From IMG/VR virus record IMGVR_UViG_3300035180_001778, positions 186,001 to 250,000 of that record: a DNA stretch of 64,000 nt; one strand, 5' to 3'. Of this stretch, positions 21,559 through 39,650 are shown piece by piece (within the stretch, counting starts at the first letter, position 1; each line of letters starts with the position of its first letter). The notes beneath the pieces were generated by a model. It did no database searches, was not told the origin of the DNA, and saw nothing but the letters and a program-made list of their open reading frames with translations. Origin of the DNA: a virus. The translations under genes were made by a program, and so were the position numbers.

Positions 21559-23810
21559 AACCTGAACCCCTGGTTGGCCGTCCCCAGCTCGACATCGACG
21601 TCAGCCGCCGTCGTGACAGGGTTGAGGTCGATGTCCATCGCGCTGTGCTGCATCTCGTACTCGACCATCATCGACTGACCGTTGTTCATGATCTGGCTGA
21701 ACGGGATCTCGGTCGCCGCTCCCGAAGCCATAATCTCCCGCTGTTGAGCGAGCTTGTCGTAGTAGGGCGGCTCCTCAACCAGAGGCTTGTTGAGCTTCGA
21801 GCAGAAGCCCGAACGAGTCTGAAGAACACACGACCCACAGCGTGAGCCGGTCTTCACATACTCGACCAGGCGAGCCCGATGCAGCCGGGAGGCCTCATCG
21901 CACCCCTTGCCGTAATCGTCGTAGATGCTCGGGTCGACGAAGTAGATCCCCTGGAGACCCTGCTCCGCAATGACCGGCCTCAAGTCCTCCGCTGATGCCG
22001 CCAAGTCCCGCGAATCGAACCGCCCCTTGAGGGCCATGAGAAGGTCCTTCCCGTAGAGGCCCTCATTCATGAAGCGGGAGGCCACCTTCACGATGTCGCG
22101 ACGGACCAGCGCGCTGGTCCGTACCGCCTGAGACCGGCTGTGGAAGGCCTTGACAATCTCCATTCGAGTAGGTGTCGAGGTGGCCCCGCTCTTCAGAGAA
22201 GCCGACCGATGCATCTTCTGGAGAGCCTCCCGAGGAGAAGCACCCCATTCCGAAGCCGGGGGCCCCCACGGCTGAATACGCCCCGATGCCTTGTGCTCCT
22301 GGAGCTGGCGCTCTGCCGTATCCCAGGTGAGGACCGCTTCCGCGGACGCCACCAAGGGCTTCCCGTACAGGAGGCACCGACCGATCTTGTTGTAGATACA
22401 GCCACCACACTTGGAGCCGGCGACCATCACCTTGATGCCAGGGTTGTGCTTCGCGAGGAAGTCATGCCCAGTTCGGCAATCGTCGAAGCTCTCCTGTGTG
22501 GCGTAGAGCACCCCAAAGACACCCGCCTCACGGAAGATGGGACCCCAGTGGTCCTTGGTTGCCTGGAGGTCCGTCGATTGGAAGGACTGCTTCAAGATGC
22601 TCGCCACATCTTCCGCAGTTCGACCCTTGAGCATCTCCCTCCGAAGCAGCTCCACAACCGGCCGGGCTCGATCCGTGGACAGCATCATCTTGGTGGCCGC
22701 CTCCCTCTTCTTCGTGAGGTTGGCGACGGAGATGAGCTGTGCTTCCGCTTCGGTCCTGTCGATGAGCTGAGGTTTCGCCTGCTCTCCCATCCCCTGGTAG
22801 ACACGAGGAGCCAGCTCGACATCTGCGAGATCGGCCATGCGCTCCGCCATCTTGAGGAGGAAGCTCTCATCTTGAGAGTGAGCGATTGCGAAGAAGGTGT
22901 CTTGGGCTTGCGCGACCGTGAGCCCGCCCTTGGTAAAGGCCTTTGCCGCCGTCTCCCGAGCCGTTGCCCGGATGTAGGTGAGGTCCACCGGAAGCTGGAG
23001 CTGAGGCGTCTCTTCGATCGGACGAAGAAGACGGCCCGTTGCCTCTACAGGCTTCTGCTGAGGAGCCGGGCCTTCGAGACGGACGTTCGGAGCCAGCATG
23101 GCAAGACGCACACGTTCACGAGGAACGGAAGCCAAGTGCTGAATATCCTTCCCCTTTGCTCGCTGCATCTGCTCGACTTCCGCCGCGAGAGCATCCGAGT
23201 ACGGGACCTCGATCTGGATCTCCTTGTGGAAGACAGAGCAGGTCTGCGAAGCTCCCACAGGGCTCTTCTGGGAATGAATGCAGCCCGAGCACGCAGGCTT
23301 CGCAAGGACGAACTGAGCATCCCCTGCGAATTTGCGGACGAACTCGATGGGCTTCTTGGAGCCGCGATGGCAACCAGGGAAGTCCTCGGCAGAGATGTAG
23401 AGCTTGCCCAGAAGACCCCGCTCGGCGAGGACTCCAGCAATGACCGCACGATTCGCTCGAAGCGTGTTCTGGTCAAAGCGTCCCACAAGGGCCGCACGGA
23501 ACTTCTGGGTGTCGCTCGACTGCATCAGCGCGAGCCGAGCAACCTTCACGACATCCTCCGGCCCCGCCCGCAAGTTCCCTTGCGCGCTGAGATCGCCAAC
23601 CGTTCGAGGAGCATCCCCACGATTGGGGACGAAGCTCGTCGGATTCGACCCGTCATGCCCCCAGAGAGCCTCCAGGTCAGGAGACACGTCGAGGTTCTGC
23701 TTGGGGAGGTTGTCGAGATCCCGGTAGTCCGACTCATTGACGTTGAGCCAGTCGAGATTTGCGAGAGAACCATCCTTCAGAAATGAACCGAGATCGCCAA
23801 GATCACCCAC
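21555..23810 (-). CDS. 751-aa protein with three cysteine modules
   Basis: Three related modules, roughly residues 55-210, 380-510 and 565-700. Each has an FDxxxL-type helix, a GLxGxxYxxxxxF/YxDxC-like stretch, and four cysteines: one alone, then CxxC, then a single C 7-9 residues on. Examples are PGCHRG...ACSGCIHS...TCSVF, DDCRTG...KCGGCIYN...RCLLY and KGCDEA...RCGSCVLQ...FCSKL. This is the form of a repeated zinc or Fe-S site. Between modules lie helical Ala/Glu-rich linkers. Not a family I recognise. Located downstream in the operon from sigma-factor block and upstream of terminase. Confidence 0.7.
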   Translation of the reverse strand: MGDLGDLGSFLKDGSLANLDWLNVNESDYRDLDNLPKQNLDVSPDLEALWGHDGSNPTSFVPNRGDAPRTVGDLSAQGNLRAGPEDVVKVARLALMQSSDTQKFRAALVGRFDQNTLRANRAVIAGVLAERGLLGKLYISAEDFPGCHRGSKKPIEFVRKFAGDAQFVLAKPACSGCIHSQKSPVGASQTCSVFHKEIQIEVPYSDALAAEVEQMQRAKGKDIQHLASVPRERVRLAMLAPNVRLEGPAPQQKPVEATGRLLRPIEETPQLQLPVDLTYIRATARETAAKAFTKGGLTVAQAQDTFFAIAHSQDESFLLKMAERMADLADVELAPRVYQGMGEQAKPQLIDRTEAEAQLISVANLTKKREAATKMMLSTDRARPVVELLRREMLKGRTAEDVASILKQSFQSTDLQATKDHWGPIFREAGVFGVLYATQESFDDCRTGHDFLAKHNPGIKVMVAGSKCGGCIYNKIGRCLLYGKPLVASAEAVLTWDTAERQLQEHKASGRIQPWGPPASEWGASPREALQKMHRSASLKSGATSTPTRMEIVKAFHSRSQAVRTSALVRRDIVKVASRFMNEGLYGKDLLMALKGRFDSRDLAASAEDLRPVIAEQGLQGIYFVDPSIYDDYGKGCDEASRLHRARLVEYVKTGSRCGSCVLQTRSGFCSKLNKPLVEEPPYYDKLAQQREIMASGAATEIPFSQIMNNGQSMMVEYEMQHSAMDIDLNPVTTAADVDVELGTANQGFRL

Positions 23811-27145: not shown

Positions 27146-29122
27146 CTACGTTGTATTCGTAGAGGACTCCGCCAGACGGAAGAACGCCGTCAGCATCGGC
27201 TCGACCTTCACATCAACATCTTGGAGGTGCTTCGAGGCTGCCTCCGGGTTCGTCATCGGGTGGACGAAAGTGAGATCCAGGTTCGAGACGAGGGCCATGA
27301 GTCCCACGTTCTTCCTGACCTGTGCCTCCGAGGCACGAATCTTCTCCTGCTGAGATTTTGTCAACTCTGGCAGAGAAGATGAAAAAACGCCATCAATGGA
27401 TCCGTATGTACGAATCAAATGCACGATGGTCTTCTCCTGGAGCCTGAAAACACCAGGAATCTTGTCCGAGCTGTCTCCCGACATGGCCCGGAAGTAGACC
27501 ATCTTGCCCGGAGGAACCCCGTATTCCTCCTTCACGGCATCGACATCGAAGAGCTTCTCGGGGCGAAGACCACTCGAAGGAGCGAGGACAGTCGTCGTTG
27601 CGGTCACGAGCTGGAGAAGATCCCGGTCGTTCGAGAGGATGACGTTCACATCCTCCTTGAGGCGCCCCGTGACGAGAGTCGCGATGGCATCGTCGGCCTC
27701 TTCCACCTCGTTGTAGGCCTGGACGACCCCAAAAGACGGTAGGGCCGCCTTCAGCCATTCGATCTGATCGCGACCCTCGAAGGGGATCCTCCCTGCCTTG
27801 TACCCGGGGAAGACGCTCATCCGACGCTGCGAGGAGTAGTCCCAGCACACGTAGATGGTGGCCTTGGGGAACCTCTTGCGAAGAGATATCAGGCTCCGAA
27901 GGAACCCCGTCACCACCCCAGAAGGACGCCCCTGCTTGTCCTTGAGCTGGTCGAGTCCCGGTGCCCGGCCACAGCGGACCGCGAGGTTGTTGCCGTCGAT
28001 GATGAGATTTTGGGTCATTGCAGGGTCTTCCACATCGTCTTCGATGTCCGTCAACTTGTCGCTCAAGGCCTTCAACCGGAGCTGAATGTCTTGGAGCCAC
28101 TCCAATTCGAGATACCGAGATTCGATGGGGGTGAGAGAGGGGGTGGTGTTGAAGGCTCGGACGACCGTCACCAACTGGTTGACGTCCGCAGTCCACCGAG
28201 AGAGACGTTGGACCTCCTCACCAAGCTGGAGCAGATGCTCCGTGGAAGAAGTCGAGGACATCGCCCGAAGGAAGTTCACCTGCTTCTGCCCCACCGAGAT
28301 CCACGTTGAAAGCTTGGCGTGCTCCCCCCACAACAGCTCCAACCGGATGGGTTCGAGGTCGAGCGCGTAACCAGCAACCAGGTCTTGATCGAGAAGGGCT
28401 CGCTCCTTGGTGGTCCACACATCAAGCATTGTGTAGGACGCCAATACATCAAGGAGCCCGTCAAAACCCTCCGAAGACCACTGCATGACAGGGAAAGCCG
28501 CCTCTCCCCATTGCTGAAGGGTCATCCATCGGGTCTGGTAGGTCAGAGAACTCTTCTCCCCCTTCGCAACAAGCCGGAGTCCAGCTCGGGGGAAGGTGAT
28601 GAGAGACTCCTTTGAGCGGAGCTGAATGTAGACCTGGACTTCATCCTTCTCCGGGATGTCCTCGATGACCTTCGCCTTGACCAGCCGGTAGGGCCCCGAG
28701 AGAATGAGCACGAGGTCCCCCACCTCGATCCCCTGGTTCTCTTCTGCTTCAATCTGACGACGAAGCTTGAGCACATCCCGATCTGGAACGTAGGCGATTC
28801 TGCGTGTCGACCGAAAACGACTCCGGTCGACGTGGCTGATGACCCCCTGTACGTATTTGCTTCCTTCGAGCCGGTAGTACTTCTCTTCGGCATGAGCCCG
28901 CCGAATGAAGGCGTACCCTTCGAGGAGGTACTTGATGACCCTGTCCCCACCCACCTGAGTGACGGACGCGGGGATGAACACGTCCGCATCTCGAAGATGG
29001 TGCCGGATGGACTGCTTGATGAGATCCGGATCTTCCCCATCCGCCTTGGGCCCAAGCTCAAGAGCAACCCACTCCGACGGCTTTGCGGGGTCAATGACAG
29101 GTTTGATTTGGCGTGATGCCAT
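27146..29122 (-). CDS. NusG-like / KOW domain fused to 5'-3' exonuclease (FEN)
   Basis: 658 aa. Residues about 30-105 resemble the NusG NGN domain (HHLRDADVFIPASV, GDRVIKYLLEGYAFIRR), and 130-185 a KOW domain (EVGDLVLILSGPYRLVKAKV). The middle (about 200-365) is helical. From 369 a complete FEN-type nuclease begins with MTQNLIIDGNNLAVRC, then FLRSLISLRKRFPKATIYVCWDYSSQRR, EADDAIATLV, ILSNDRDLLQLV and SGDSSDKIPGVF, the acidic residues of Pol I-like 5'-3' exonucleases and T4 RNase H. An internal ATG at 28018 with GGAAGA upstream could also give the nuclease alone. Expected to remove RNA primers or flaps. Confidence 0.75.
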   Translation of the reverse strand: MASRQIKPVIDPAKPSEWVALELGPKADGEDPDLIKQSIRHHLRDADVFIPASVTQVGGDRVIKYLLEGYAFIRRAHAEEKYYRLEGSKYVQGVISHVDRSRFRSTRRIAYVPDRDVLKLRRQIEAEENQGIEVGDLVLILSGPYRLVKAKVIEDIPEKDEVQVYIQLRSKESLITFPRAGLRLVAKGEKSSLTYQTRWMTLQQWGEAAFPVMQWSSEGFDGLLDVLASYTMLDVWTTKERALLDQDLVAGYALDLEPIRLELLWGEHAKLSTWISVGQKQVNFLRAMSSTSSTEHLLQLGEEVQRLSRWTADVNQLVTVVRAFNTTPSLTPIESRYLELEWLQDIQLRLKALSDKLTDIEDDVEDPAMTQNLIIDGNNLAVRCGRAPGLDQLKDKQGRPSGVVTGFLRSLISLRKRFPKATIYVCWDYSSQRRMSVFPGYKAGRIPFEGRDQIEWLKAALPSFGVVQAYNEVEEADDAIATLVTGRLKEDVNVILSNDRDLLQLVTATTTVLAPSSGLRPEKLFDVDAVKEEYGVPPGKMVYFRAMSGDSSDKIPGVFRLQEKTIVHLIRTYGSIDGVFSSSLPELTKSQQEKIRASEAQVRKNVGLMALVSNLDLTFVHPMTNPEAASKHLQDVDVKVEPMLTAFFRLAESSTNTT

Positions 29123-29125
29123 GGA

Positions 29126-30586
29126 CTATCCTCGGCTGGGCCAAGTTCGCTCGAACTCTCGCCGCCATTCATCCGGAGTCAACATACGAAGGTCGTCTGC
29201 CGGATCCCCACGTCGGGGAAAAGAAACCGGGACATGGACGTGATCGCGACCCCGAGCTTTGTTCACAGGGACGCCCTTGTGATCCAGCTCAGTCAGGGCA
29301 CAGACATCGCCAGAACCAATGGGACCCACCCCATCGAATCGAGTACCGTCGGGCTTCTTCTCCGGCTTCTTCACTTCCGGCAAGACCTGGACTGCCGGCG
29401 GAATATACCCAGCCGGGGCCACCACACTGGGAGTGATCGAAGGGTCAACCGTCAAGCTGATCACAGGAGCTTGAACAGGAGCCGGAGCCTGAACGGGAGC
29501 TGCCGTGACCACCTGAATGGGAGCCGCCATGGGGACCCCCGCGACCGACGGAGCAGGAATGCCCCCTGCCAGATTGAGGATGTCGCAGAAGAGATTCACC
29601 CTTGTGGTGTTCCTCCGCTGAAGGAAGTACTCCGAGAGCTTGAGGGTGTTCACGCCGAACGCTTCGTAGACCTTCTGACCGAGTGCGCGGTCGACGTAGA
29701 CGAAGTCAGCGAACATGTTGTTCGCCATTCGGTATGAATTCATGGCCGCTTCGGCGAGGCCATCAGCCACATCTTGAGGAGAGACCTGCTCACAAGCCTG
29801 TCCTACCAACTCGATCGCACGCTGAGGAGTCCCGAGTGAGAGCATGATCTCGTAGTACGTCGAGACGAGCGGGAGGCGGAGGTACTCCCGCACATTGGCG
29901 AGATTGACATCCCCCATTTGCCCGATCATCTCCAGCCGGTTGAGGACATCCCGAACGTGCCCCCCGGAGTAGTCGATGACAGTGAGCACAGCGTCATCCT
30001 CGAAGGAGACCCCTTCCGCCGTGAGGATGGACTTCATCCTTCCGAGGATGTCCTCTCGGGTCACCTTTCGAATGGCGTAGTCTTCGCACCGGGACCGAAT
30101 CGTCGCCCGGATCTTCTCCACTTCCGTCGTGCAGAAGATCCCGACGAGCTTGTTCTCCTCCAAAGGCTTGAGGAGAACATCCTGTGCATCCCGGGTCATG
30201 CGATGCGCCTCATCGAAGAGGTGGATCCGCTTCGAGGCCCCATAGACCGCGAAGGGCAGCTCCTCGACGAGGGCTCGCATGTGGTCGACAGTCCCGCAGC
30301 TCGCCGCATCTCGCTCGACGAATGCGAGCGAGGTTTCGGAGAGAATATACAGGCAGTTGTCGCACTCGTTACAAGGCTCAGGGTTGGCCAAGTCGATCGC
30401 CTGGCAGAGCATGGCCCTTGCCATGATCCGAGCAAGCGTCGTCTTCCCCTGACCGTGACCCCCAGCGAAGATGTAGTTCTTGCTGAGGGCCGTTCCGTCA
30501 CGAAGGCGTGTCTGGAGGATCTGGACAGTGCCTCGCTGGCCGAGGACGTCCGAGAACTTACGGGGCCTGTACTTGGTGTCCCACAC
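29126..30586 (-). CDS. dnaX: DNA polymerase III gamma/tau-like clamp loader subunit
   Basis: 486 aa. N-terminus WDTKYRPRKFSDVLGQ is the DnaX opening; the GTG start was kept for this reason. Walker A GGHGQGKTT (42-50), a Cys cluster PCNECDNC (about 71-78) of the zinc module, DEAH Walker B (125-128), and sensor IRSRC with the SRC finger (163-167). Domain III-like helices follow to about 350. Then a Pro/Ala-rich linker and a short basic tail of unknown role. Works with the HolA- and HolB-like subunits at 50-52 kb. Confidence 0.88.
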   Translation of the reverse strand: MWDTKYRPRKFSDVLGQRGTVQILQTRLRDGTALSKNYIFAGGHGQGKTTLARIMARAMLCQAIDLANPEPCNECDNCLYILSETSLAFVERDAASCGTVDHMRALVEELPFAVYGASKRIHLFDEAHRMTRDAQDVLLKPLEENKLVGIFCTTEVEKIRATIRSRCEDYAIRKVTREDILGRMKSILTAEGVSFEDDAVLTVIDYSGGHVRDVLNRLEMIGQMGDVNLANVREYLRLPLVSTYYEIMLSLGTPQRAIELVGQACEQVSPQDVADGLAEAAMNSYRMANNMFADFVYVDRALGQKVYEAFGVNTLKLSEYFLQRRNTTRVNLFCDILNLAGGIPAPSVAGVPMAAPIQVVTAAPVQAPAPVQAPVISLTVDPSITPSVVAPAGYIPPAVQVLPEVKKPEKKPDGTRFDGVGPIGSGDVCALTELDHKGVPVNKARGRDHVHVPVSFPRRGDPADDLRMLTPDEWRREFERTWPSRG

Positions 30587-30592
30587 AGGTTT

Positions 30593-31084
30593 TCAGTGCG
30601 CCGTAGCGGACTCCCCCTCAGAGGACGACATCACGATATCGTCCACCATGTCTTCGATCTCGATGGCCTTGGCGACGCTCGCGAACGCAGATAGGGTCTC
30701 GTTCCAGGCACCGTGCCGACGGAGAATCGAGGTGAACTCCTCGACATCCGGCGTACGGAGAACCCAGACCATGTCCCCGGTCTTGTCGTCTTCCTCTCCC
30801 GTGCAGTGCTCCAGGAGGTGATCGACGAGCGCCGTTCGCTTGTTCTCCGTCAGCTCATTCCAGGTGTCCTCGGCGACCTCGATGATGAAGTCGCAGTCGA
30901 TGAAGAACTGCGAGATGCCCGATAGCTTTCGGGCCTTGCCGAGGACGGGACGGCCAGACTTCGTCGAGCCCTTGTCCACGAAGGCGTACTTCAACCGTGC
31001 GGTGGCCAGCTCCGGGTGATACCCGGGGATCAGGTTCTTCGCAATGGTTGCGATCGTCTCACTCTCACTGTAAATCTTACCCAT
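30593..31084 (-). CDS. putative phage metallopeptidase, atypical active site
   Basis: 163 aa. Central block DCDFIIEVAEDTWNELTENKRTALVDHLLEHC resembles the phage zinc-peptidase family with W-x-x-L, KR-x-ALVDH and a His pair. In the common form the motif is DHELxHC; here it reads DHLLEHC, so the usual Glu position is Leu and a Glu sits one residue before the second His. The protein may be inactive or use another acid. Located between DnaX and primase with stop/start overlap of 8 bp to primase. Confidence 0.5.
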   Translation of the reverse strand: MGKIYSESETIATIAKNLIPGYHPELATARLKYAFVDKGSTKSGRPVLGKARKLSGISQFFIDCDFIIEVAEDTWNELTENKRTALVDHLLEHCTGEEDDKTGDMVWVLRTPDVEEFTSILRRHGAWNETLSAFASVAKAIEIEDMVDDIVMSSSEGESATAH

Positions 31085-31808
31085 AGGGAAACTCCATCAG
31101 GCTACCCGACCTCACATGAGATCGGAGGTACTCTCCAAGTCGGGCATCTCCCCAGGCCTCCCAGAGGTCTCCAGGATCCTTGACCAGCTTGCCGCCAACC
31201 AAAGTGACCCGGGGGTAAACTACCCGACGAACATCGAATTCCCGGCCGTACTGTTGGCGAAACCTATCGTACGCCCTATTTCCGGCGGAATCCATATCAT
31301 ATCCGATCCACACGCGACGTACAAGACGTCGTAGGATCCGAACAAATCCCTCCGTGACCCGAGCAGTCAGCGTCGAAGCAATACCAGGAAGGAACCTCTG
31401 GAGGGGTAGAAGATCGAAGCCACCCTCGACCAGAAGGATCTCCCCCGTCTCCCACACTGTGGGCATTGCCTGAGCGAGCCCGAACCCCACAGCCTCATCC
31501 TGCGCGAGGATGAAGTCCATGTAGCCCCCACGCTCCCTATCGACGTGCCGAAACTGGAGGCCTCGAATCTCGCCGATGGTGTTCGTAATCGGAAGGACGT
31601 AGCAATCGTCGAGCTTCCCCCCATCCCCCGACCAAGACACGAAGTCTTGGGGGTAGTTGATTGCCGGTAGAACCCGGTCAACGTACCCAATTTGAAATTG
31701 ACTGATCTGTTCGTCAGTGACCCCGCGTCCCCACAAGGACTCACGAACACGCTCGGGTAGCTCAGCTCCAGATTCAGATTCAGCGACGAACTCGTCAAGC
31801 CAGGTCAC
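31077..31808 (-). CDS. DNA primase, TOPRIM type
   Basis: 243 aa. DnaG-like core without the N-terminal zinc finger: DEFVAESESGAELPERVRESLWGRG, then YVLPITNTIGEIRGLQFRH (substrate-binding basic domain), the TOPRIM Glu in LLVEGGFDLLPL, and DxD as WIGYDMDSAGNRAYDRF, followed by PGDLWEAWGD. Length suits a primase domain with no helicase or C-terminal extension. Lies in a block with DnaX and the FEN fusion, consistent with lagging-strand synthesis. Overlaps the upstream gene by 14 bp. Confidence 0.8.
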   Translation of the reverse strand: MTWLDEFVAESESGAELPERVRESLWGRGVTDEQISQFQIGYVDRVLPAINYPQDFVSWSGDGGKLDDCYVLPITNTIGEIRGLQFRHVDRERGGYMDFILAQDEAVGFGLAQAMPTVWETGEILLVEGGFDLLPLQRFLPGIASTLTARVTEGFVRILRRLVRRVWIGYDMDSAGNRAYDRFRQQYGREFDVRRVVYPRVTLVGGKLVKDPGDLWEAWGDARLGEYLRSHVRSGSLMEFPYG

Positions 31809-32944: not shown

Positions 32945-33604
32945 TCACCGATGACTCCGAAGGCGGCGAATGTCTAGCCACGTCGTCTCATCCGCACCCA
33001 GCTCTTCAGACCCTTGGTACGCGATGTCCGCGTGTTCGAGGAAGGCTTGCTTGTGGGTGACAAACAAAATGTCGATGTTGGTCGATTCCGCGAGACGCTG
33101 AAGGAAACGTCCGGCTGCATCCACGTACTCATCCGAGACTGCCGCAAGCGTCTCGTCGAGTAGGAGCACAGGGAACCGCTTCAAGCGGAGAAGAAGAAGG
33201 AGACGGAGGATCAGGGAGACGATGCTCGCGGGTCCACCCCCAAAAGAATCAAGGGGGTGTCCTCGAACGCCCGTCTCCTCGTCTCCCTGTCGAATGAAGA
33301 AGTCGATGGAGACCCTGTTCCGCGCCTGTCCGATCGCTGCCTCGAAAGATAGCTTCTGATCGAAGAAGATGGTCTTCAACCCCTCGGAGACAAGAGCCTC
33401 CAAAGTTTTGACGCGATCCGTGACGAGCTTGTCCAGAAGAACGCGAAGAAGCTCCCCAACCTTGAAGAGCTTCTCGATCTGGGCCGAGAGGGTCAACACT
33501 TCCGCGCTTTTCGACTCCAAGTCCGCCCGCTTTTGATCGCGGAGGGCCTGGAGTCGAGCTGCTTTCAACGCGAGAGCTTCGGTCCTCGCAACCCAGTCCT
33601 TCAT
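32945..33604 (-). CDS. SbcC/Rad50-type ATPase, C-terminal half
   Basis: 219 aa. Opens with a coiled-coil arm (residues 1-70), then signature-like SFGGGPASIVSLILRLL (about 120-136), Walker B and D-loop VLLLDETLAAVSDEY (about 146-160), and the His switch ILFVTHKQAF (about 179-188). It lacks a Walker A, which is supplied by the separate gene at 37117-38340. Together they would make one split SbcC-like head with the SbcD nuclease at 36125. GGTGTA precedes its start. Confidence 0.78.
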   Translation of the reverse strand: MKDWVARTEALALKAARLQALRDQKRADLESKSAEVLTLSAQIEKLFKVGELLRVLLDKLVTDRVKTLEALVSEGLKTIFFDQKLSFEAAIGQARNRVSIDFFIRQGDEETGVRGHPLDSFGGGPASIVSLILRLLLLLRLKRFPVLLLDETLAAVSDEYVDAAGRFLQRLAESTNIDILFVTHKQAFLEHADIAYQGSEELGADETTWLDIRRLRSHR

Positions 33605-33614
33605 GCTTCTGTCC

Positions 33615-33620
33615 TACACC
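33615..33620 (-). promoter_or_regulatory. GGTGTA start-proximal element
   Basis: GGTGTA, 10-nt spacer GGACAGAAGC, then the ATG at 33604 of the SbcC C-terminal half. Confidence 0.45.
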
Positions 33621-33633
33621 CGTCCGCCCCGAA

Positions 33634-34914
33634 TCAGTCCTTCGAGGGCATGTACCGGGTCACGCGGCACTCGTGCGACCCTTCCGGCCGGTTCTCCGCC
33701 GTGATGTCCCCGACCACCTTGCCGTTGTCGTCCATGAGGAACTCGTCGATGGTGCGGAACATGGCCCGTTCCTTGGGGGACTTGTCGTCGGCCTTGATGA
33801 CCGCGATCCGAAGCTGGACGTCCATGCCCTTCACGCCGTCGATGAGGTCGATGAGCCGATCGATGTTGACGTTGAAGGTGATCTCTTGCTCCTCGGAGCC
33901 GTCGATGACGACAGCCGGGAGCGGGAAGCTCCGAGCCTTGCCCTTCGTCTCCGCGACCCGGAAGAGCATCGTGGCCTGGCGTTGCACCTTCTCGCCCACC
34001 TCGACGTCACGGAACTCGTTGACGACCAGAGTGATCTTGTCTTCCTTGGAATCCAGCTCCGAGCGCATGAAGCGGAGGGCGTCCACCGTCAGCGACTTGG
34101 GGAGCCCAAGGATGAGCTTGTCCATCGTCTTCGAGTAGTACGAGAACTTCCCGTGAACGGCCTCGTGCTTCGCCCACCCAAGGGCGTTCCCCTTGGAGTC
34201 GACGGCGAAGATCATGTTGTCGCCCGTCACGAGCTTCACTTCCCCGTCCGACTTCGCGAGGAAGCTCGTGAAGAAAGACATGTGCTGGACGTGGATCGAG
34301 AAACCCTTGTCCACGAAGGCAGCGCTGTAGAACCAGAACGCCTGGAAGGTGTTCGCAGCGAAGAGGTGCCCTGAGCCCTTCTCCCACTCGTGCTTGGACT
34401 TGTCGAAGAGCTGGAGCGTCTTGAAGTGCTCCGGGATCCGCGTGTCGTCGGCCTTCCCGAGGAAGGGCTTGGCCAGCGTCATCGCCTCCTTGAATAGGCC
34501 CACGGGGAAGGACCGCTCATCCTTGGCTCCGGCGAGATCCCGATCACACGAGGCCATGAGCTTCGGGTCGAAGCTCGCGCGATCGGCCCCAGCTCCCGAG
34601 TTCGTGCTCCAGGAGACCGTGAAGTTGTCCGCTTCCACCTTGGACTCGATCGTGATCTCGTCATCCCGAAGGAAGCGAAAGCCGCTCGTGAACTCCGAGG
34701 GGAAGATGAAGGATCCCTCGGTGTCCGTCTCGTCACAGGAGATCGTGGCGCGAGCGACGTGGAGAGCATCGCGGGAGTAGATCGAGCAGAGGCCTCCCGT
34801 TCGGATGACGAAGAGGTAGCCGGCCCCGCCCGCGGGGGTCAGGGGACGCGGAGGGACGATCGAAACGATTGCGAGGGCCTTGATCAGGTCGGCGAGCTTG
34901 AGCGTGATTTTCAT
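33634..34914 (-). CDS. sliding clamp (DNA polymerase III beta-like)
   Basis: 426 aa from MKITLKLADLIKALAIV (ATG at 34914; the frame extends upstream only in low-quality sequence). The pattern of three topologically similar domains, the clamp-typical opening, and a C-terminal YMPSKD end fit a beta-clamp. Blocks such as GLCSIYSRDALHVARATI, FSIHVQHMSFFTSFLAK, GDNMIFAVDSKGNALG and RVTRYMPSKD fit ring strands, though direct motif identity is weak, so I rely on length, fold pattern and the DnaX/HolA/HolB context. It is flanked by SbcC halves. Confidence 0.6.
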   Translation of the reverse strand: MKITLKLADLIKALAIVSIVPPRPLTPAGGAGYLFVIRTGGLCSIYSRDALHVARATISCDETDTEGSFIFPSEFTSGFRFLRDDEITIESKVEADNFTVSWSTNSGAGADRASFDPKLMASCDRDLAGAKDERSFPVGLFKEAMTLAKPFLGKADDTRIPEHFKTLQLFDKSKHEWEKGSGHLFAANTFQAFWFYSAAFVDKGFSIHVQHMSFFTSFLAKSDGEVKLVTGDNMIFAVDSKGNALGWAKHEAVHGKFSYYSKTMDKLILGLPKSLTVDALRFMRSELDSKEDKITLVVNEFRDVEVGEKVQRQATMLFRVAETKGKARSFPLPAVVIDGSEEQEITFNVNIDRLIDLIDGVKGMDVQLRIAVIKADDKSPKERAMFRTIDEFLMDDNGKVVGDITAENRPEGSHECRVTRYMPSKD

Positions 34915-34936
34915 TCCATCCTCATTTGGAGAGTCG

Positions 34937-35209
34937 TTACTTCTTGTCGTAGCCGGCCAAGGAAGTCTCCACGGCCAGCAACTTGGTCTCGTACTCGGCA
35001 ATCTCCTGAAGGAGACTTGCCTCCGCCTTGTCCCTCTCCGCCGAGAGGTTCTTGGGGTCGTAGCCCGCAGCCTTCACTTCGGTGACCAGATCCGCGAGGT
35101 CTTCCTTGACCTTCTGGAGCTGCCCCTCGTACTGCGACTTCTTCTTCTGGGCGACTTCGGTTCGCCTCGATAGGTCGTCGATCTTCTTCTTGATCTCGTC
35201 CGGAGTCAT
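34937..35209 (-). CDS. small coiled-coil protein, 90 aa
   Basis: MTPDEIKKKIDDLSRRTEVAQKKKS followed by an almost uninterrupted coiled coil to the C-terminus (LVTEVKAAGYDPKNL break in the middle). It lies between the Cas4-like nuclease and the clamp, inside the split SbcCD block, and may be an arm piece of the split Rad50-like complex (inference). Confidence 0.65.
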   Translation of the reverse strand: MTPDEIKKKIDDLSRRTEVAQKKKSQYEGQLQKVKEDLADLVTEVKAAGYDPKNLSAERDKAEASLLQEIAEYETKLLAVETSLAGYDKK

Positions 35210-35219
35210 ACGTGTCCTT

Positions 35220-36125
35220 TCAATCCCCGATGCCCACGTCTTCTACACCCTCTCCAGCGTAGACGGGGATCTGATGTTTCGCTGTGAAGCTCTGACCTTC
35301 AGGGCAAAGCGCGAGGTAGGAGCAGAGCTTGCACTTGCCCTGTCCAGGTTGAGCCTGGAACACATCCTCCATCACCTTTTTCTGAACTTCCCTGCTCCCC
35401 GAGATGAAGGTGTTGATACCCTCATCAATCTTCCGCACCGTGTTGAGGACATGGGCTAGGAGCCCATCGAGGTCCGCCGCGGTGAAGTTGATCCAGTCCA
35501 GGCTCTCCTCCGGCTCATACCGCCAGAAGACGAACCCCAAACGATCGGGGGGATATCCATGACGAATTCGATGAAGCATCGCGTACCACACGAGCTGGCG
35601 ATCATCGACGTATTTCTCTCGATGACGGGACCCCTTCCCATCGAGTAGAACGAGGTCTCGATGAGGGGCGACTCGACGTAGAACGAAGTCAGCACGACCC
35701 CCAATCGTGTGCCCCTCGATCATTGTGTCGTACTTGACCTCTGCCGCTGCATCAGCACCGATCAGCCGGTGGTGCCTGATGATGGCAATTCCTCGGGGAA
35801 TCGCCGCTCGGATGTCCGCAACAAGGAGGTCACGGGATGCGTAGTTCGACCTCTTGTCCGTGTAGTCGATGACCCCATTCCGCCGCTCTTTTTGAATGGT
35901 GTCGTCCAGCTCGGGCTCGACCATCCCCAAAAGAGTCTCGATGGTGTTCGACTGTTTCCAAATCTGGTTGACGTAGAACAGCTCGAACAGACGGCCCACT
36001 GTGCTGCCGTAGAGGGAGTTGACCTTGTTCTCCGGCTCGGAGAGAGGGGTCTTGCCCACGTAGCGATACCAGTACGACTTGGGACAGGAATCGTACGACT
36101 TGAACCCAGAATACGACAGATACAT
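35220..36125 (-). CDS. Cas4/RecB-like PD-(D/E)XK nuclease with Fe-S cluster
   Basis: 301 aa. Opening LSYSGFKSYDSCPKSYWYRYVGK carries the first Cys and the RecB-family QWxxF-like start. The nuclease core is GRADFVLRRV then LVLLDGKGSRHREKYVDDRQLVWYAML: D...D-x-K with Q-x-x-x-Y. The late CKLCSYLALC (about 268-277) supplies three more Cys for a 4Fe-4S cluster. Layout matches Cas4-like exonucleases used in phage recombination. Stop of the SbcD gene overlaps its start by one base. Confidence 0.82.
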   Translation of the reverse strand: MYLSYSGFKSYDSCPKSYWYRYVGKTPLSEPENKVNSLYGSTVGRLFELFYVNQIWKQSNTIETLLGMVEPELDDTIQKERRNGVIDYTDKRSNYASRDLLVADIRAAIPRGIAIIRHHRLIGADAAAEVKYDTMIEGHTIGGRADFVLRRVAPHRDLVLLDGKGSRHREKYVDDRQLVWYAMLHRIRHGYPPDRLGFVFWRYEPEESLDWINFTAADLDGLLAHVLNTVRKIDEGINTFISGSREVQKKVMEDVFQAQPGQGKCKLCSYLALCPEGQSFTAKHQIPVYAGEGVEDVGIGD

Positions 36126-37105
36126 CAGCCCACCTCCGCCCGCGCTCGCTCCAAATACCCTTGTGCGAGATCACGCACATCACGGGCATAGTCAAGACTA
36201 TTCAGCGATTCCTCAATCCCCAAAGAGGGGTCGAACATCGCGTCGGCCTTGATACGAGCTGCAAAGGCATCGATTGCCGTATCCTCGGCTTCTTCTCGTT
36301 CCTTGCGTTCGATGTCGAAGACATCCTCCGCCGGGGCAACGATCAGGGGGACAGGCCAGACCCGAAGCACACCGTTTTCAATCACGATGTGGGACACCTG
36401 GGGGGTCCTCAAGGTGTTCTCTCGAACGAGAGCACCTCGGCTCACAGCCCCTTGGTTGACGAACTGCTTGCCCCCCACGGTCACGATGCCCTGGTCCTTG
36501 TGCCAGTGCCCGAAGCACCAAGCATCCGGACCATTCTCAGTCACGAGGTCGCCGTACCGGAAGACTGGCTCCCCGAAGAAACCCTCGACATTGGGAGGGG
36601 GCTCTTGAGCTGCGAGGGCGTGGACAACCGCTATGATGAAGTCGTCCCCCGGCTTCTTCTGGATCCTCTTCAGCTCCGCCACGGTTCGATGCGGGCTGTA
36701 GGGAACCCCCACCACCCGAACTCGAACCCCACCATCTTCGAAGACCTGCTCTCGAAGATGGTGGAAGACCCCCGTTGCGAGGAGCACGCCGAGAGGCTGC
36801 TTCGCCAGGGTGTCCAGGTTGTTGTAGGCGATGTCGTGGTTGCCTTCGACAGACCACACAGGACAGGGGTAGGCCTGATGGATCCGAGCGGCCCTCTCAA
36901 CGAGAGCGTGAGGATTCCGGCTTGCTGCCTTGACGTGGAAGAAGTCTCCCCCGTCAAGAACAGCCGTCACCTCGAACTGCTTCGCGAACTGCCCGATCTG
37001 TTCGAGATTCGACCAAATCTCCGACGGGTAGTCCGCTTTCCACGACGCCGGGCTCCGATCCGCTACGTGGGTGTCGGTCCTAAAAAGGAAAGATAGTCGA
37101 GACAT
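36125..37105 (-). CDS. SbcD/Mre11-type nuclease
   Basis: 326 aa from MSRLSFLFRTDTHV (ATG at 37105; a GTG two codons earlier is possible). Metallophosphoesterase motifs in order: TDTHVAD (about 9-15), GGDFFH (about 53-58), VEGNHDIAY (about 86-94), VVHALA, and GHWH in WCFGHWHKDQG, the set that binds two metal ions. Ends in a helical capping part (residues 270-326). Partner of the split SbcC halves. Preceded by GGTGTA. Confidence 0.87.
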   Translation of the reverse strand: MSRLSFLFRTDTHVADRSPASWKADYPSEIWSNLEQIGQFAKQFEVTAVLDGGDFFHVKAASRNPHALVERAARIHQAYPCPVWSVEGNHDIAYNNLDTLAKQPLGVLLATGVFHHLREQVFEDGGVRVRVVGVPYSPHRTVAELKRIQKKPGDDFIIAVVHALAAQEPPPNVEGFFGEPVFRYGDLVTENGPDAWCFGHWHKDQGIVTVGGKQFVNQGAVSRGALVRENTLRTPQVSHIVIENGVLRVWPVPLIVAPAEDVFDIERKEREEAEDTAIDAFAARIKADAMFDPSLGIEESLNSLDYARDVRDLAQGYLERARAEVG

Positions 37106-37116
37106 CCACACTCACT

Positions 37117-38340
37117 CTACACCTGTTCGGGGTGAGAATCGGAATGAAAAGGACGAGAACATGTCGAACAGACCCCCAGCTCAGCCCACTCCCGATTGAG
37201 GGCCTCTTCCTCCAGATAGATGAGGCTGCATCCTCGTTCAAAGGTGGCGAGATTACGAAGAGTCACCTCGTAATCTCGCGCGAACTCGACCAGGTCTTCG
37301 TGTTTCTCGTAGGCCGCACGGACTGAGGCAAGGGCTGGCACCTCAAGGGTCCTCACATCCTTGAGACGGCCCATGCTCTCCTTGAACCCCCGAAGGCGAG
37401 CGATCCACCCTTCGAGGAGCTGGAAGGTCACCTCCGCGAAGGTCCGAAGATCCGTCACACTCGGGATCTCGATCTTGTCCACCCCGTCGAGAGAAGCCAG
37501 GGCCGCCCTCCGGGTGTTGTTCTGAAGACAGAGCCTCTGGAGAAGAGCGAAGGTCTTCTGGCCTTCCTGTAGGTCAGAAGGATTTGGGGGTGTTTGAGCA
37601 ACGACACCCTCAAGACCCATGACCCGAGCTTCGAGAGCAGCTCGACCGTCGATGAAGTAGTCGAGCTGTGTGACCTTGGCTTGAGTCGCCTGGACAACCC
37701 CCAACTTCGTCTTGACGGTCTTGACGTCGCGAAGGGCTGTGTCGAGCCCTTCGTACGCAGCGAGCTGTGTCGTTGCCTCAATGACGTCCTTCTCCCGAAC
37801 CTTCCGTGTAGCTGTTGCCTCCCTCCGGTCCTTCTCGACCATCCTCATGGCGAGATTGACCTGATCGAGCTTGGCCATGTCCGAGAGGACATCCGCGACA
37901 ACCCCAGGGGATTGGTCGAGCAGGAAGATGGGGTTGAATTGATCGGAGACTTGTAGGAGGACGTTCCTATCCCCCACCTTGACCTCGTTGAAAGCCGCGG
38001 TCAGAAAGTCCGGCATCCCACGCTCGGCAGCGGGGTACTCCGCTCCATTGAAGACGTAGCGATTGATCGAATCGCCCTTCTCCCAAAGGAGATCGAAGTC
38101 CGCAGACTGGAGATGCACGGAGACGTGGCACTTGCACGTCTTCTGCTTCTTCAGCTTGCGGGCACAAGAAGGCCCGTGACGTACGAATGACGCCACGGGC
38201 GCTCCAGTGAGAGCACAACGAATCGCCCGAATGAGCGCGCTCTTTCCGATGTTCGACCGGCCCACAAGAGCCGTGAAGCCGTCAATCTGGAAAGAAACCC
38301 GCTCGATCGATTGAAAGTTGCAGACCTCGACCGAGATCAT
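37117..38340 (-). CDS. SbcC/Rad50-type ATPase, N-terminal half with CxxC hook
   Basis: 407 aa. N-terminal head: MISVEVCNFQSIERVSFQI, Walker A GRSNIGKSA (27-35), then the Q-loop-like FLLDQSPGVVADVLSD. A long coiled coil occupies about 160-385. The chain stops at LGVCSTCSRPFHSDSH, a CxxC of the zinc hook (Cys 391 and 394) only 13 residues before the end. There is no Walker B; that half is the separate gene at 32945. The hook would dimerise two such chains through zinc. Overlaps RecA by 4 bp. Confidence 0.82.
   Translation of the reverse strand: MISVEVCNFQSIERVSFQIDGFTALVGRSNIGKSALIRAIRCALTGAPVASFVRHGPSCARKLKKQKTCKCHVSVHLQSADFDLLWEKGDSINRYVFNGAEYPAAERGMPDFLTAAFNEVKVGDRNVLLQVSDQFNPIFLLDQSPGVVADVLSDMAKLDQVNLAMRMVEKDRREATATRKVREKDVIEATTQLAAYEGLDTALRDVKTVKTKLGVVQATQAKVTQLDYFIDGRAALEARVMGLEGVVAQTPPNPSDLQEGQKTFALLQRLCLQNNTRRAALASLDGVDKIEIPSVTDLRTFAEVTFQLLEGWIARLRGFKESMGRLKDVRTLEVPALASVRAAYEKHEDLVEFARDYEVTLRNLATFERGCSLIYLEEEALNREWAELGVCSTCSRPFHSDSHPEQV
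37118..37123 (-). promoter_or_regulatory. GGTGTA start-proximal element
   Basis: GGTGTA, 12-nt spacer, ATG at 37105. The TAG that follows GGTG is also the stop codon of the SbcC N-terminal gene, so in this copy conservation of the element could be coincidental. Confidence 0.35.
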
Positions 38341-39650
38341 TCGCCGTCGGACTCGTCCTCAGCCGAATCTTCCACGATCGGATCGTCAGTGTCGATCGTG
38401 ATTTCCTGCGTCCCCCCAGACGCATCGTCATCATCGTCCCCCAGCTCGCCACTGAGGTCCGCCTGCATCGCGTCCTCATCCGAGATCTCCTCGTCAGGGA
38501 TCGCCGTCGGGATGGCCGAAGAGATGGCCTCGACAACCTTCCCCTTGATCTCCGCTGCCAGCTTGGGGTTGGCGATCAAGTGCGCGCGCAGCTTGTCCTT
38601 CCCCATGAAGGCCTCGCCTGCACAGGTGTACTTCGAGCCCTCGCGCTTGATGATCCCGTTGGCCTCGGCTGCCATGATGATGCTGTAGAGGTCGTCGATT
38701 CCAAAGCCGTACCGAATGAAGATCGTCGCTTCGTGTCCCTGCTTGGCGTCGGCCTTTGCCTTGATGACCTTCACGGAGGTGAGGTTGCCGAAGGGGTACT
38801 TCTTGATCTTCCCCGTGGCGGGGTCCTTCCGCTCGACACGCTCCGAGAGAATCCGAGCGAGTCGCAGCCGAACGTAGGCGAAGTACTTGAGAGCCTTTCC
38901 ACCGGCCGTGTTGGCTTCCGGAGCACCGTGACCCCCACCCGTGCTGATGGTGGCTCGCTCCTGGTTGAGCAGGATGAGTGCCGTCCCGAGACGCTCGGGG
39001 TCGGAAATCTTGCTCTCCCCTGCTCCCTTCGTCGGGTACTTGGCGAGCCACAAGACGAGCTTGGGTAGGGTCTCGCTCATCTTCTTCGCCACAGCACCGA
39101 TCTTGGCGGTGTCCTCGATCTTCTTCTCCAGCTCCAGAGCAGGAACCATCGAGGCGACCGAGTCGACGACGATGATATCCACGCCGGCCATGATGCCGAC
39201 GAGAATCATCTTGAAACCATCTTCCATCGTGTCGGGAGCGTAGAGAAGGAGGTCTTCGAACTGAACCCCAATCTGCTTCGCGTAGCCGTGGTGAAGAGCG
39301 TGCTCGAAGTCGAGGAACATCGCCGTCCCCCCGTTCTTCTGGACGTTCGCGATGGCCGTGAGAGCCACCGTCGTCTTGCCACTCGACTCAGGACCGTAGA
39401 TTTCCGTGATGCGACGCCGGGGGTAGCCAGGGCAAACGAAGCCCTTCCCATCTGCCGTTCGCGAACCACCGATGCTCGTGTCGAGAATGACCGAGCCCGA
39501 AGGAACGTGAGGTAGGGTCGTTTGCTGGGCCGTCATCGGCCGCTGCTTGGTGGTCTTGAGGATCATGGCCCTGGCAAGGGTCGCCACTGCCGATGCATTG
39601 GTGACATGTGCCTTGGCCTTCTTGTCTTTCGTGGTCGTCGCAGTCGTCAT
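38337..39650 (-). CDS. recA: RecA recombinase
   Basis: 437 aa. Core motifs: PSGSVILDTSIGG, Walker A GPESSGKTT (about 86-94), TAMFLDFEHALH, Walker B IIVVDSVASMVPALELE, the LNQERATIS loop, and GGKALKYFAYVRLRL before the C-terminal domain. The C-terminus has a long acidic tail (DEEISDEDAMQAD and DDDDDASGG). RecA of this length is bacterial-type rather than T4 UvsX-like in layout. Stop overlaps the SbcC start as ATGA; start overlaps the HNH stop the same way. Confidence 0.9.
   Translation of the reverse strand: MTTATTTKDKKAKAHVTNASAVATLARAMILKTTKQRPMTAQQTTLPHVPSGSVILDTSIGGSRTADGKGFVCPGYPRRRITEIYGPESSGKTTVALTAIANVQKNGGTAMFLDFEHALHHGYAKQIGVQFEDLLLYAPDTMEDGFKMILVGIMAGVDIIVVDSVASMVPALELEKKIEDTAKIGAVAKKMSETLPKLVLWLAKYPTKGAGESKISDPERLGTALILLNQERATISTGGGHGAPEANTAGGKALKYFAYVRLRLARILSERVERKDPATGKIKKYPFGNLTSVKVIKAKADAKQGHEATIFIRYGFGIDDLYSIIMAAEANGIIKREGSKYTCAGEAFMGKDKLRAHLIANPKLAAEIKGKVVEAISSAIPTAIPDEEISDEDAMQADLSGELGDDDDDASGGTQEITIDTDDPIVEDSAEDESDGE

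Follow-up and report, generated by a model that had tools for sequence, protein, structure and literature searches.

A Rad50/SbcC-type ATPase that appears to be divided between two genes in a conserved recombination operon of giant phages

Gene content of the locus

The window analysed here is a stretch of 64,000 bases from the 350,469-base virus record of a jumbo phage, in which it covers bases 186001-250000, and all positions given below are window positions unless another record is named. The operon comprises, in this order, genes for RecA, the N-terminal half of Rad50/SbcC (N-half), SbcD, a PD-(D/E)XK nuclease, a 90-residue coiled coil (cc90), a sliding-clamp candidate, and the C-terminal half of Rad50/SbcC (C-half). 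All of them lie tightly packed on the minus strand, and the positions that the original prediction gave for its open reading frames hold (Table 1). The stop codon of RecA overlaps the start of the N-half (ATGA), and that of SbcD overlaps the start of the nuclease.

Table 1. Genes and motifs of the operon, in window positions
Feature	Position	Strand	Remarks
RecA-type recombinase	38337..39650	-	Same place upstream of the N-half in nearly all relatives
N-half of Rad50/SbcC, 407 aa	37117..38340	-	N-lobe 1-157, helical arm 158-390, CSTC 391-394
Walker A GRSNIGKS, N-half residues 27-34	38239..38262	-	G27, G32, and K33 invariant, 58/58
Zinc-hook half-motif CSTC, N-half residues 391-394	37159..37170	-	At the N-half C-terminus, 13 residues short of the end
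SbcD/Mre11-type nuclease, 328 aa	36125..37111	-	Metallophos 2.8e-11 (Pfam); phrog_100 SbcD-like 3.1e-8
RecB/Cas4-type PD-(D/E)XK nuclease, 301 aa	35220..36125	-	PDDEXK_1 9.4e-16 (Pfam)
cc90, 90 aa	34937..35209	-	Two helical stretches flanking a conserved (G/I)DP turn
Sliding-clamp candidate, 426 aa from ATG 34914	33634..34914	-	PHROG 947; conserved operon place
C-half of Rad50/SbcC, 219 aa	32945..33604	-	Helix 2-79, then C-lobe
Degenerate ABC signature LDSFGGG, C-half	33233..33253	-	Aligned to Rad50 LSGG; G122 and G123 invariant, 61/61
Walker B VLLLDE, C-half	33152..33169	-	D150 and E151 invariant, 61/61

The presence of SbcD between the two halves, as had been proposed, is borne out by its profile matches and by a full set of phosphoesterase motifs read from the sequence (DTH, GDFFH, GNHD, VHA, and GHWH); the gene adjoins the N-half. 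The neighbouring nuclease had been described as Cas4-like. Its PD-(D/E)XK character stands, but it scores only 21.8 bits against the Cas4 model TIGR00372, for which the cut-off is 65, and its sequence is better called a RecB-family PD-(D/E)XK nuclease than Cas4. The protein has four cysteines, one N-terminal and three in CKLCSYLALC, in a pattern like that of Fe-S Cas4/AddB nucleases. For the clamp candidate, PHROG 947 ("DNA polymerase processivity factor") is the sole match (1.5e-5), with none in Pfam; ATG 34914 is preferable as its start to the TTG at 35001. Farther downstream (27146-31808) lie genes for a 5'-nuclease-like protein, a DnaX-like clamp-loader ATPase, and a Toprim primase-like protein, owing to which the phage appears to have a bacterial-type replisome.

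Two complementary lobes

The N-half matches PHROG 16465 (2.2e-20) and Pfam AAA_23 (8e-6), and the Walker A motif and long coil ending in CSTC that had been read from it are both present. Q134 of the Q-loop is found in 57 of 58 aligned N-halves, and mean conservation is 0.53 in the head vs. 0.27 in the arm. In an AlphaFold2 model built from alignments of the locus proteins (mean pLDDT 83.2), the N-lobe is good and the arm has low global confidence (pTM 0.43); the closest solved structure is chain A of P. furiosus Mre11-Rad50 (9a9j_A, Z 11.3 over 167 residues, rmsd 3.8).

The C-half matches PHROG 15167 (1e-19). When its profile is compared with the PDB, separately expressed Rad50 C-terminal chains come first (3qkr_B, 8.2e-11; 1ii8_B, 3e-10; also 1f2t_B). 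Its model, obtained in the same way, is confident (pLDDT 94.2), with a single helix at residues 2-79, and matches the Rad50 C-lobe 9a9j_B (Z 13.2 over 166 residues, rmsd 4.5) and 1f2u_B (Z 12.9). The original prediction had credited this gene with a signature motif, Walker B, His switch, and a short coil. The last three are there, with H184 of the His switch in 60 of 61 aligned C-halves; the signature is present in degenerate form, with the two glycines invariant but the usual serine of canonical LSGG replaced, and with variants among relatives. Because this serine is missing, ATP sandwiching and nucleotide contacts may differ from those of other Rad50 proteins.

The two proteins are thus complementary: their best structural matches are partner chains of a single entry, the Walker A residues are confined to the N-half, the Walker B pair is confined to the C-half, and all are invariant. 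Together with the 53 loci described below, this upholds the proposal that one Rad50/SbcC is spread over two genes. Lobe homology, joint conservation, and the operon all suggest that the two proteins associate, in which case the N-half (Walker A, Q-loop, and long arm) and the C-half (Walker B, His switch, and short helix) would build one ABC ATPase head in trans.

Distribution of the split pair

Among 50,697 phage records, the pair was found in only four phages, namely LR745208, an uncultured phage of 485 kb, and three cultured phages with both halves: Microbacterium phage Magritte, Tunturiibacter phage Tunturi_5, and Bacillus phage vB_BboS-125. The pair is common in IMG/VR contigs. Profile searches of the fetched loci yielded 53 distinct loci with both halves, 44 of which share the identical seven-gene order on one strand; the remaining loci are truncated at contig ends or, as judged by these profiles, are short of individual genes. 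The same split therefore recurs in relatives, as had been put forward for checking. Such conservation, along with annotated phage records, also excludes a sequencing error or frameshift as its cause. A contig binned with an Altiarchaeales MAG, which carries the same seven genes in the same order, is probably viral. The seven proteins have diverged to mean pairwise distances of 0.53-0.74, so the synteny is old. The best reading is an ancient split variant of Mre11-Rad50.

SbcD accompanies the pair in 52 of the 53 loci, and a phosphoesterase is found in six of seven outlying records. In vB_BboS-125 (L118, NC_048735.1), an unannotated open reading frame for an SbcD-like phosphoesterase (approx. 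22411-23417, E 2.9e-12) occupies the gap right after the C-half and gp36. Where the halves are not neighbours, the partner lies elsewhere in the same record (Magritte, Tunturi_5, G001, G010-G013, and G017), and in records of more than 80 kb it was always located except in the 139-kb G002, which has an N-half without a C-half, as do several short fragments. The distance matrices of the two halves correlate at 0.90, and the partial correlation given RecA (0.61) is the highest value for the N-half, although this mirror-tree signal is only slightly higher than that for neighbouring genes.

No fused single-chain form was seen among approx. 60 distinct N-halves, the longest of which has 485 residues, except for the 706-residue L043 with an intein. 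Over-long open reading frames that might be taken for fusions (L065, L066, L067, and L043) are overlapping-frame start artefacts or, again, the intein. The latter (L043, 4609-6729), judged from the sequence, is approx. 290 residues long, sits in the Walker A loop after GK, and ends in HN before T. A hidden full-length SbcC elsewhere was also rejected: the PHROG 77 model found none in 19 records, and only one AAA_23 gene is present in the 350-kb record from which the window comes. Matches in Erythrobacter ZS04 and Pseudomonas Dolphis are different single-gene ATPases with no hook or C-half nearby.

A zinc-hook motif at a free C-terminus

The terminal CxxC, whose conservation among relatives had been singled out for checking, is present in 57 of 58 aligned N-halves, and few residues of the protein are as well conserved as C391 and C394. 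At the observed cysteine frequency, the chance of a CxxC within the last 30 residues is approx. 0.0035. Sampling was not keyed to the hook; most N-halves were recruited by an N-terminal FQS motif, and other loci via the C-half. The top PDB matches to a profile of the last 67 residues are crystals of the P. furiosus Rad50 zinc hook (1l8d, 3.5e-7; 6zff, 5.8e-6), and the alignment spans the ascending helix and the hook, with the phage chain stopping where the descending helix of Rad50 would begin. In Rad50, one zinc is shared by the CxxC motifs of two protomers, and short hook peptides dimerise tightly (PMC9569753). By analogy, the terminal motifs of two N-halves would share one zinc and so hold the arm tips together.

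Alternatively, the CxxC could form a self-contained zinc knuckle in each N-half, with a nearby histidine or cysteine completing the site and no intermolecular hook. Such a site is suggested by the window's own tail (CSTCSRPFHSDSH) and by the presence of at least two His/Cys residues after the CxxC in 35 of 55 N-halves. Nonetheless, of the 55 tails, eight lack any additional His/Cys and 12 carry a single one. Where such residues occur, their spacing is not conserved, and the best matches to the tail profile in the whole PDB are Rad50 hooks. A knuckle is unlikely.

The CxxC is absent from Magritte, which is inside the alignment, and from record G012 (L110), which is outside it, and is kept in the related records G010, G011, and G013. 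From these sequences, it seems that the hook was lost in one sub-lineage (Magritte L003/L004; L110) that retained the split N- and C-halves. With their distant, separate N and C genes lacking the terminal CxxC, Magritte and L110 constitute a natural hook-less control.

Unequal arms and a third helical protein

In the window, the N-half has 233 helical residues in its arm vs. approx. 55 residues outside the head in the C-half. Measured from the end of the N-lobe (residue 158), the N-arm ranges from 152 to 322 residues across relatives, with clusters near 155, 200, 235-243, and 281-290. The spacing of prolines within the arm peaks at 41 residues (z 14.5) and again near 82. The length clusters and the proline periodicity indicate that the arm is a chain of approx. 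41-residue helical units. The leading segment of the C-half, in turn, stays constant, at 66-96 residues up to G75, irrespective of the length of the N-arm (rho -0.25, p 0.08), which implies that most of the normal descending arm is absent. The N-arm itself may be straight or folded back, or may pair with a second N-arm or with cc90.

These measurements bear on the original proposal that a break at the hook would let the two arms join non-covalently, read here as two full arms, with cc90 as a piece, that re-associate along their length into a nicked version of the ordinary Rad50 coiled coil. It is true that the N-half terminates at the hook and that helical cc90 accompanies the pair, lying between N and C even in vB_BboS-125. 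However, the cut is asymmetric and the N-arm varies in steps while the C-arm stays the same, so a simple rejoining of the arms from end to end does not fit; nor is similarity of cc90 to either arm demonstrable. A merely nicked coil is therefore distinctly unlikely, and two complete arms that join at the hook are not supported.

The suggestion that cc90 is an arm piece fared better in one respect, in that the protein does travel with the split pair. A profile model detects it in 49 of the 53 loci, the remaining four (L048, L049, L083, and L089) have weak candidates, and homologues are found in vB_BboS-125 (gp34, 6.4e-14) and Tunturi_5 (gp180, 6.2e-6), where it adjoins the N-half. The vB_BboS-125 cluster has no clamp or nuclease annotation, and cc90 tracks the split pair better than it tracks the clamp. 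In Magritte and most relatives of this phage, no cc90 was found. The arm similarity is not significant (hhalign 47% and 33%) and the PDB matches are generic coiled coils, which leaves an origin as a duplicated arm unproven. We consider cc90 a likely third structural subunit of the complex. In vB_BboS-125 (L118, 10398-10970), a gene with an AP2 domain, probably a homing element, lies between the N-half and cc90.

A probable role in DNA-end processing

The association of RecA, SbcD, a RecB-type nuclease, and a clamp in one operon points to DNA-end processing and recombination-dependent replication, the processes served by T4 46/47. Two heads and an SbcD dimer would form a Mre11-Rad50 core. The most likely task of the complex is to prepare DNA ends, by opening and trimming them, for the RecA encoded next to it, presumably aided by the RecB/Cas4-type nuclease. 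Overall, this is very probably a natural two-polypeptide Rad50 whose halves form the head in trans, that is, a variant of Mre11-Rad50 whose single arm bears the hook at its tip and whose genes belong to a phage operon for end processing and recombination. We also lean, with considerably less assurance, towards regarding it as a new architecture, in which each head is made of two proteins, a single modular arm of approx. 41-residue repeats ends in the hook, the descending strand is absent or nearly so, and a further conserved helical protein serves as third subunit.

It could be argued that the split Rad50 serves mainly replication, acting as a loader or processivity device together with the clamp, since 49 of the 53 loci have the clamp gene between the halves and primase-like and clamp-loader-like genes follow downstream. 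However, the closest partners of the pair are SbcD and RecA, the clamp was not found beside it in L046, L047, L049, and L087, and a clamp-SbcC-SbcD adjacency is already familiar from T4, which makes a mainly replicative role highly unlikely. It is hardly credible that the halves are decayed remnants, or pieces of unrelated ATPases that each have a partner of their own: they are separate genes, tens of kilobases apart in Magritte, Tunturi_5, and G001, but each lacks half of the catalytic residues, those retained are invariant, and both are kept across very divergent phages.

Comparison with known systems

Like the Mre11-Rad50/SbcCD systems of P. furiosus, E. coli, and T4 (gp46-gp47), the phage two-gene Rad50 has the head lobes, a CxxC hook motif, a phosphoesterase as probable partner, and nearby genes for a recombinase and a candidate clamp. 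It departs from them in its division into two polypeptides, in the loss of most of the descending arm and of the signature serine, and in carrying the hook at a free C-terminus. Crystals of the P. furiosus Rad50 catalytic domain (1f2t, 1f2u, and 3qkr) show the same partition, with an N-lobe chain and a C-lobe chain making up one head; however, these are laboratory constructs without a hook, whereas the phage split is natural and its N chain keeps the arm and hook.

The PHROG families matched by the halves, 16465 ("exonuclease") and 15167 ("ATPase"), are listed separately, and neither label, under which the vB_BboS-125 and Tunturi_5 genes are annotated, indicates that together they make one Rad50. 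Mre11/Rad50 fusion proteins are described in Mimivirus and others (PMC3175470), and these also have a rearranged layout but in the opposite direction, by fusion rather than by splitting Rad50. Jumbo phages are described as having split DNA polymerase III and RNA polymerase subunits, likewise one catalytic unit over two genes although the enzymes differ, and the passages on SbcC in the same survey, of 224 jumbo phages, treat it as a single ABC ATPase and mention no split (PMC7824862). Within the open PMC literature, no description of a split Rad50 was found. Thus, the natural two-gene dissection of the usually one-piece Rad50, in a large family of mostly uncultured giant phages, appears to be undescribed.

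Rad50 is the ATPase component of a machine that repairs DNA breaks. It has long been asked how its distant hook and its ATPase head communicate across the coiled coils, and in the cellular protein, the two coil strands are inseparable without breaking it. The architecture proposed above, if true, would let hook, arm, and head be separated and recombined. The phages offer a natural series in which the chain is cut, one strand is mostly dropped, the arm length comes in discrete repeats, and the hook is lost in Magritte and L110. This series is testable because the cultured Tunturi_5, vB_BboS-125, and Magritte carry members of it.
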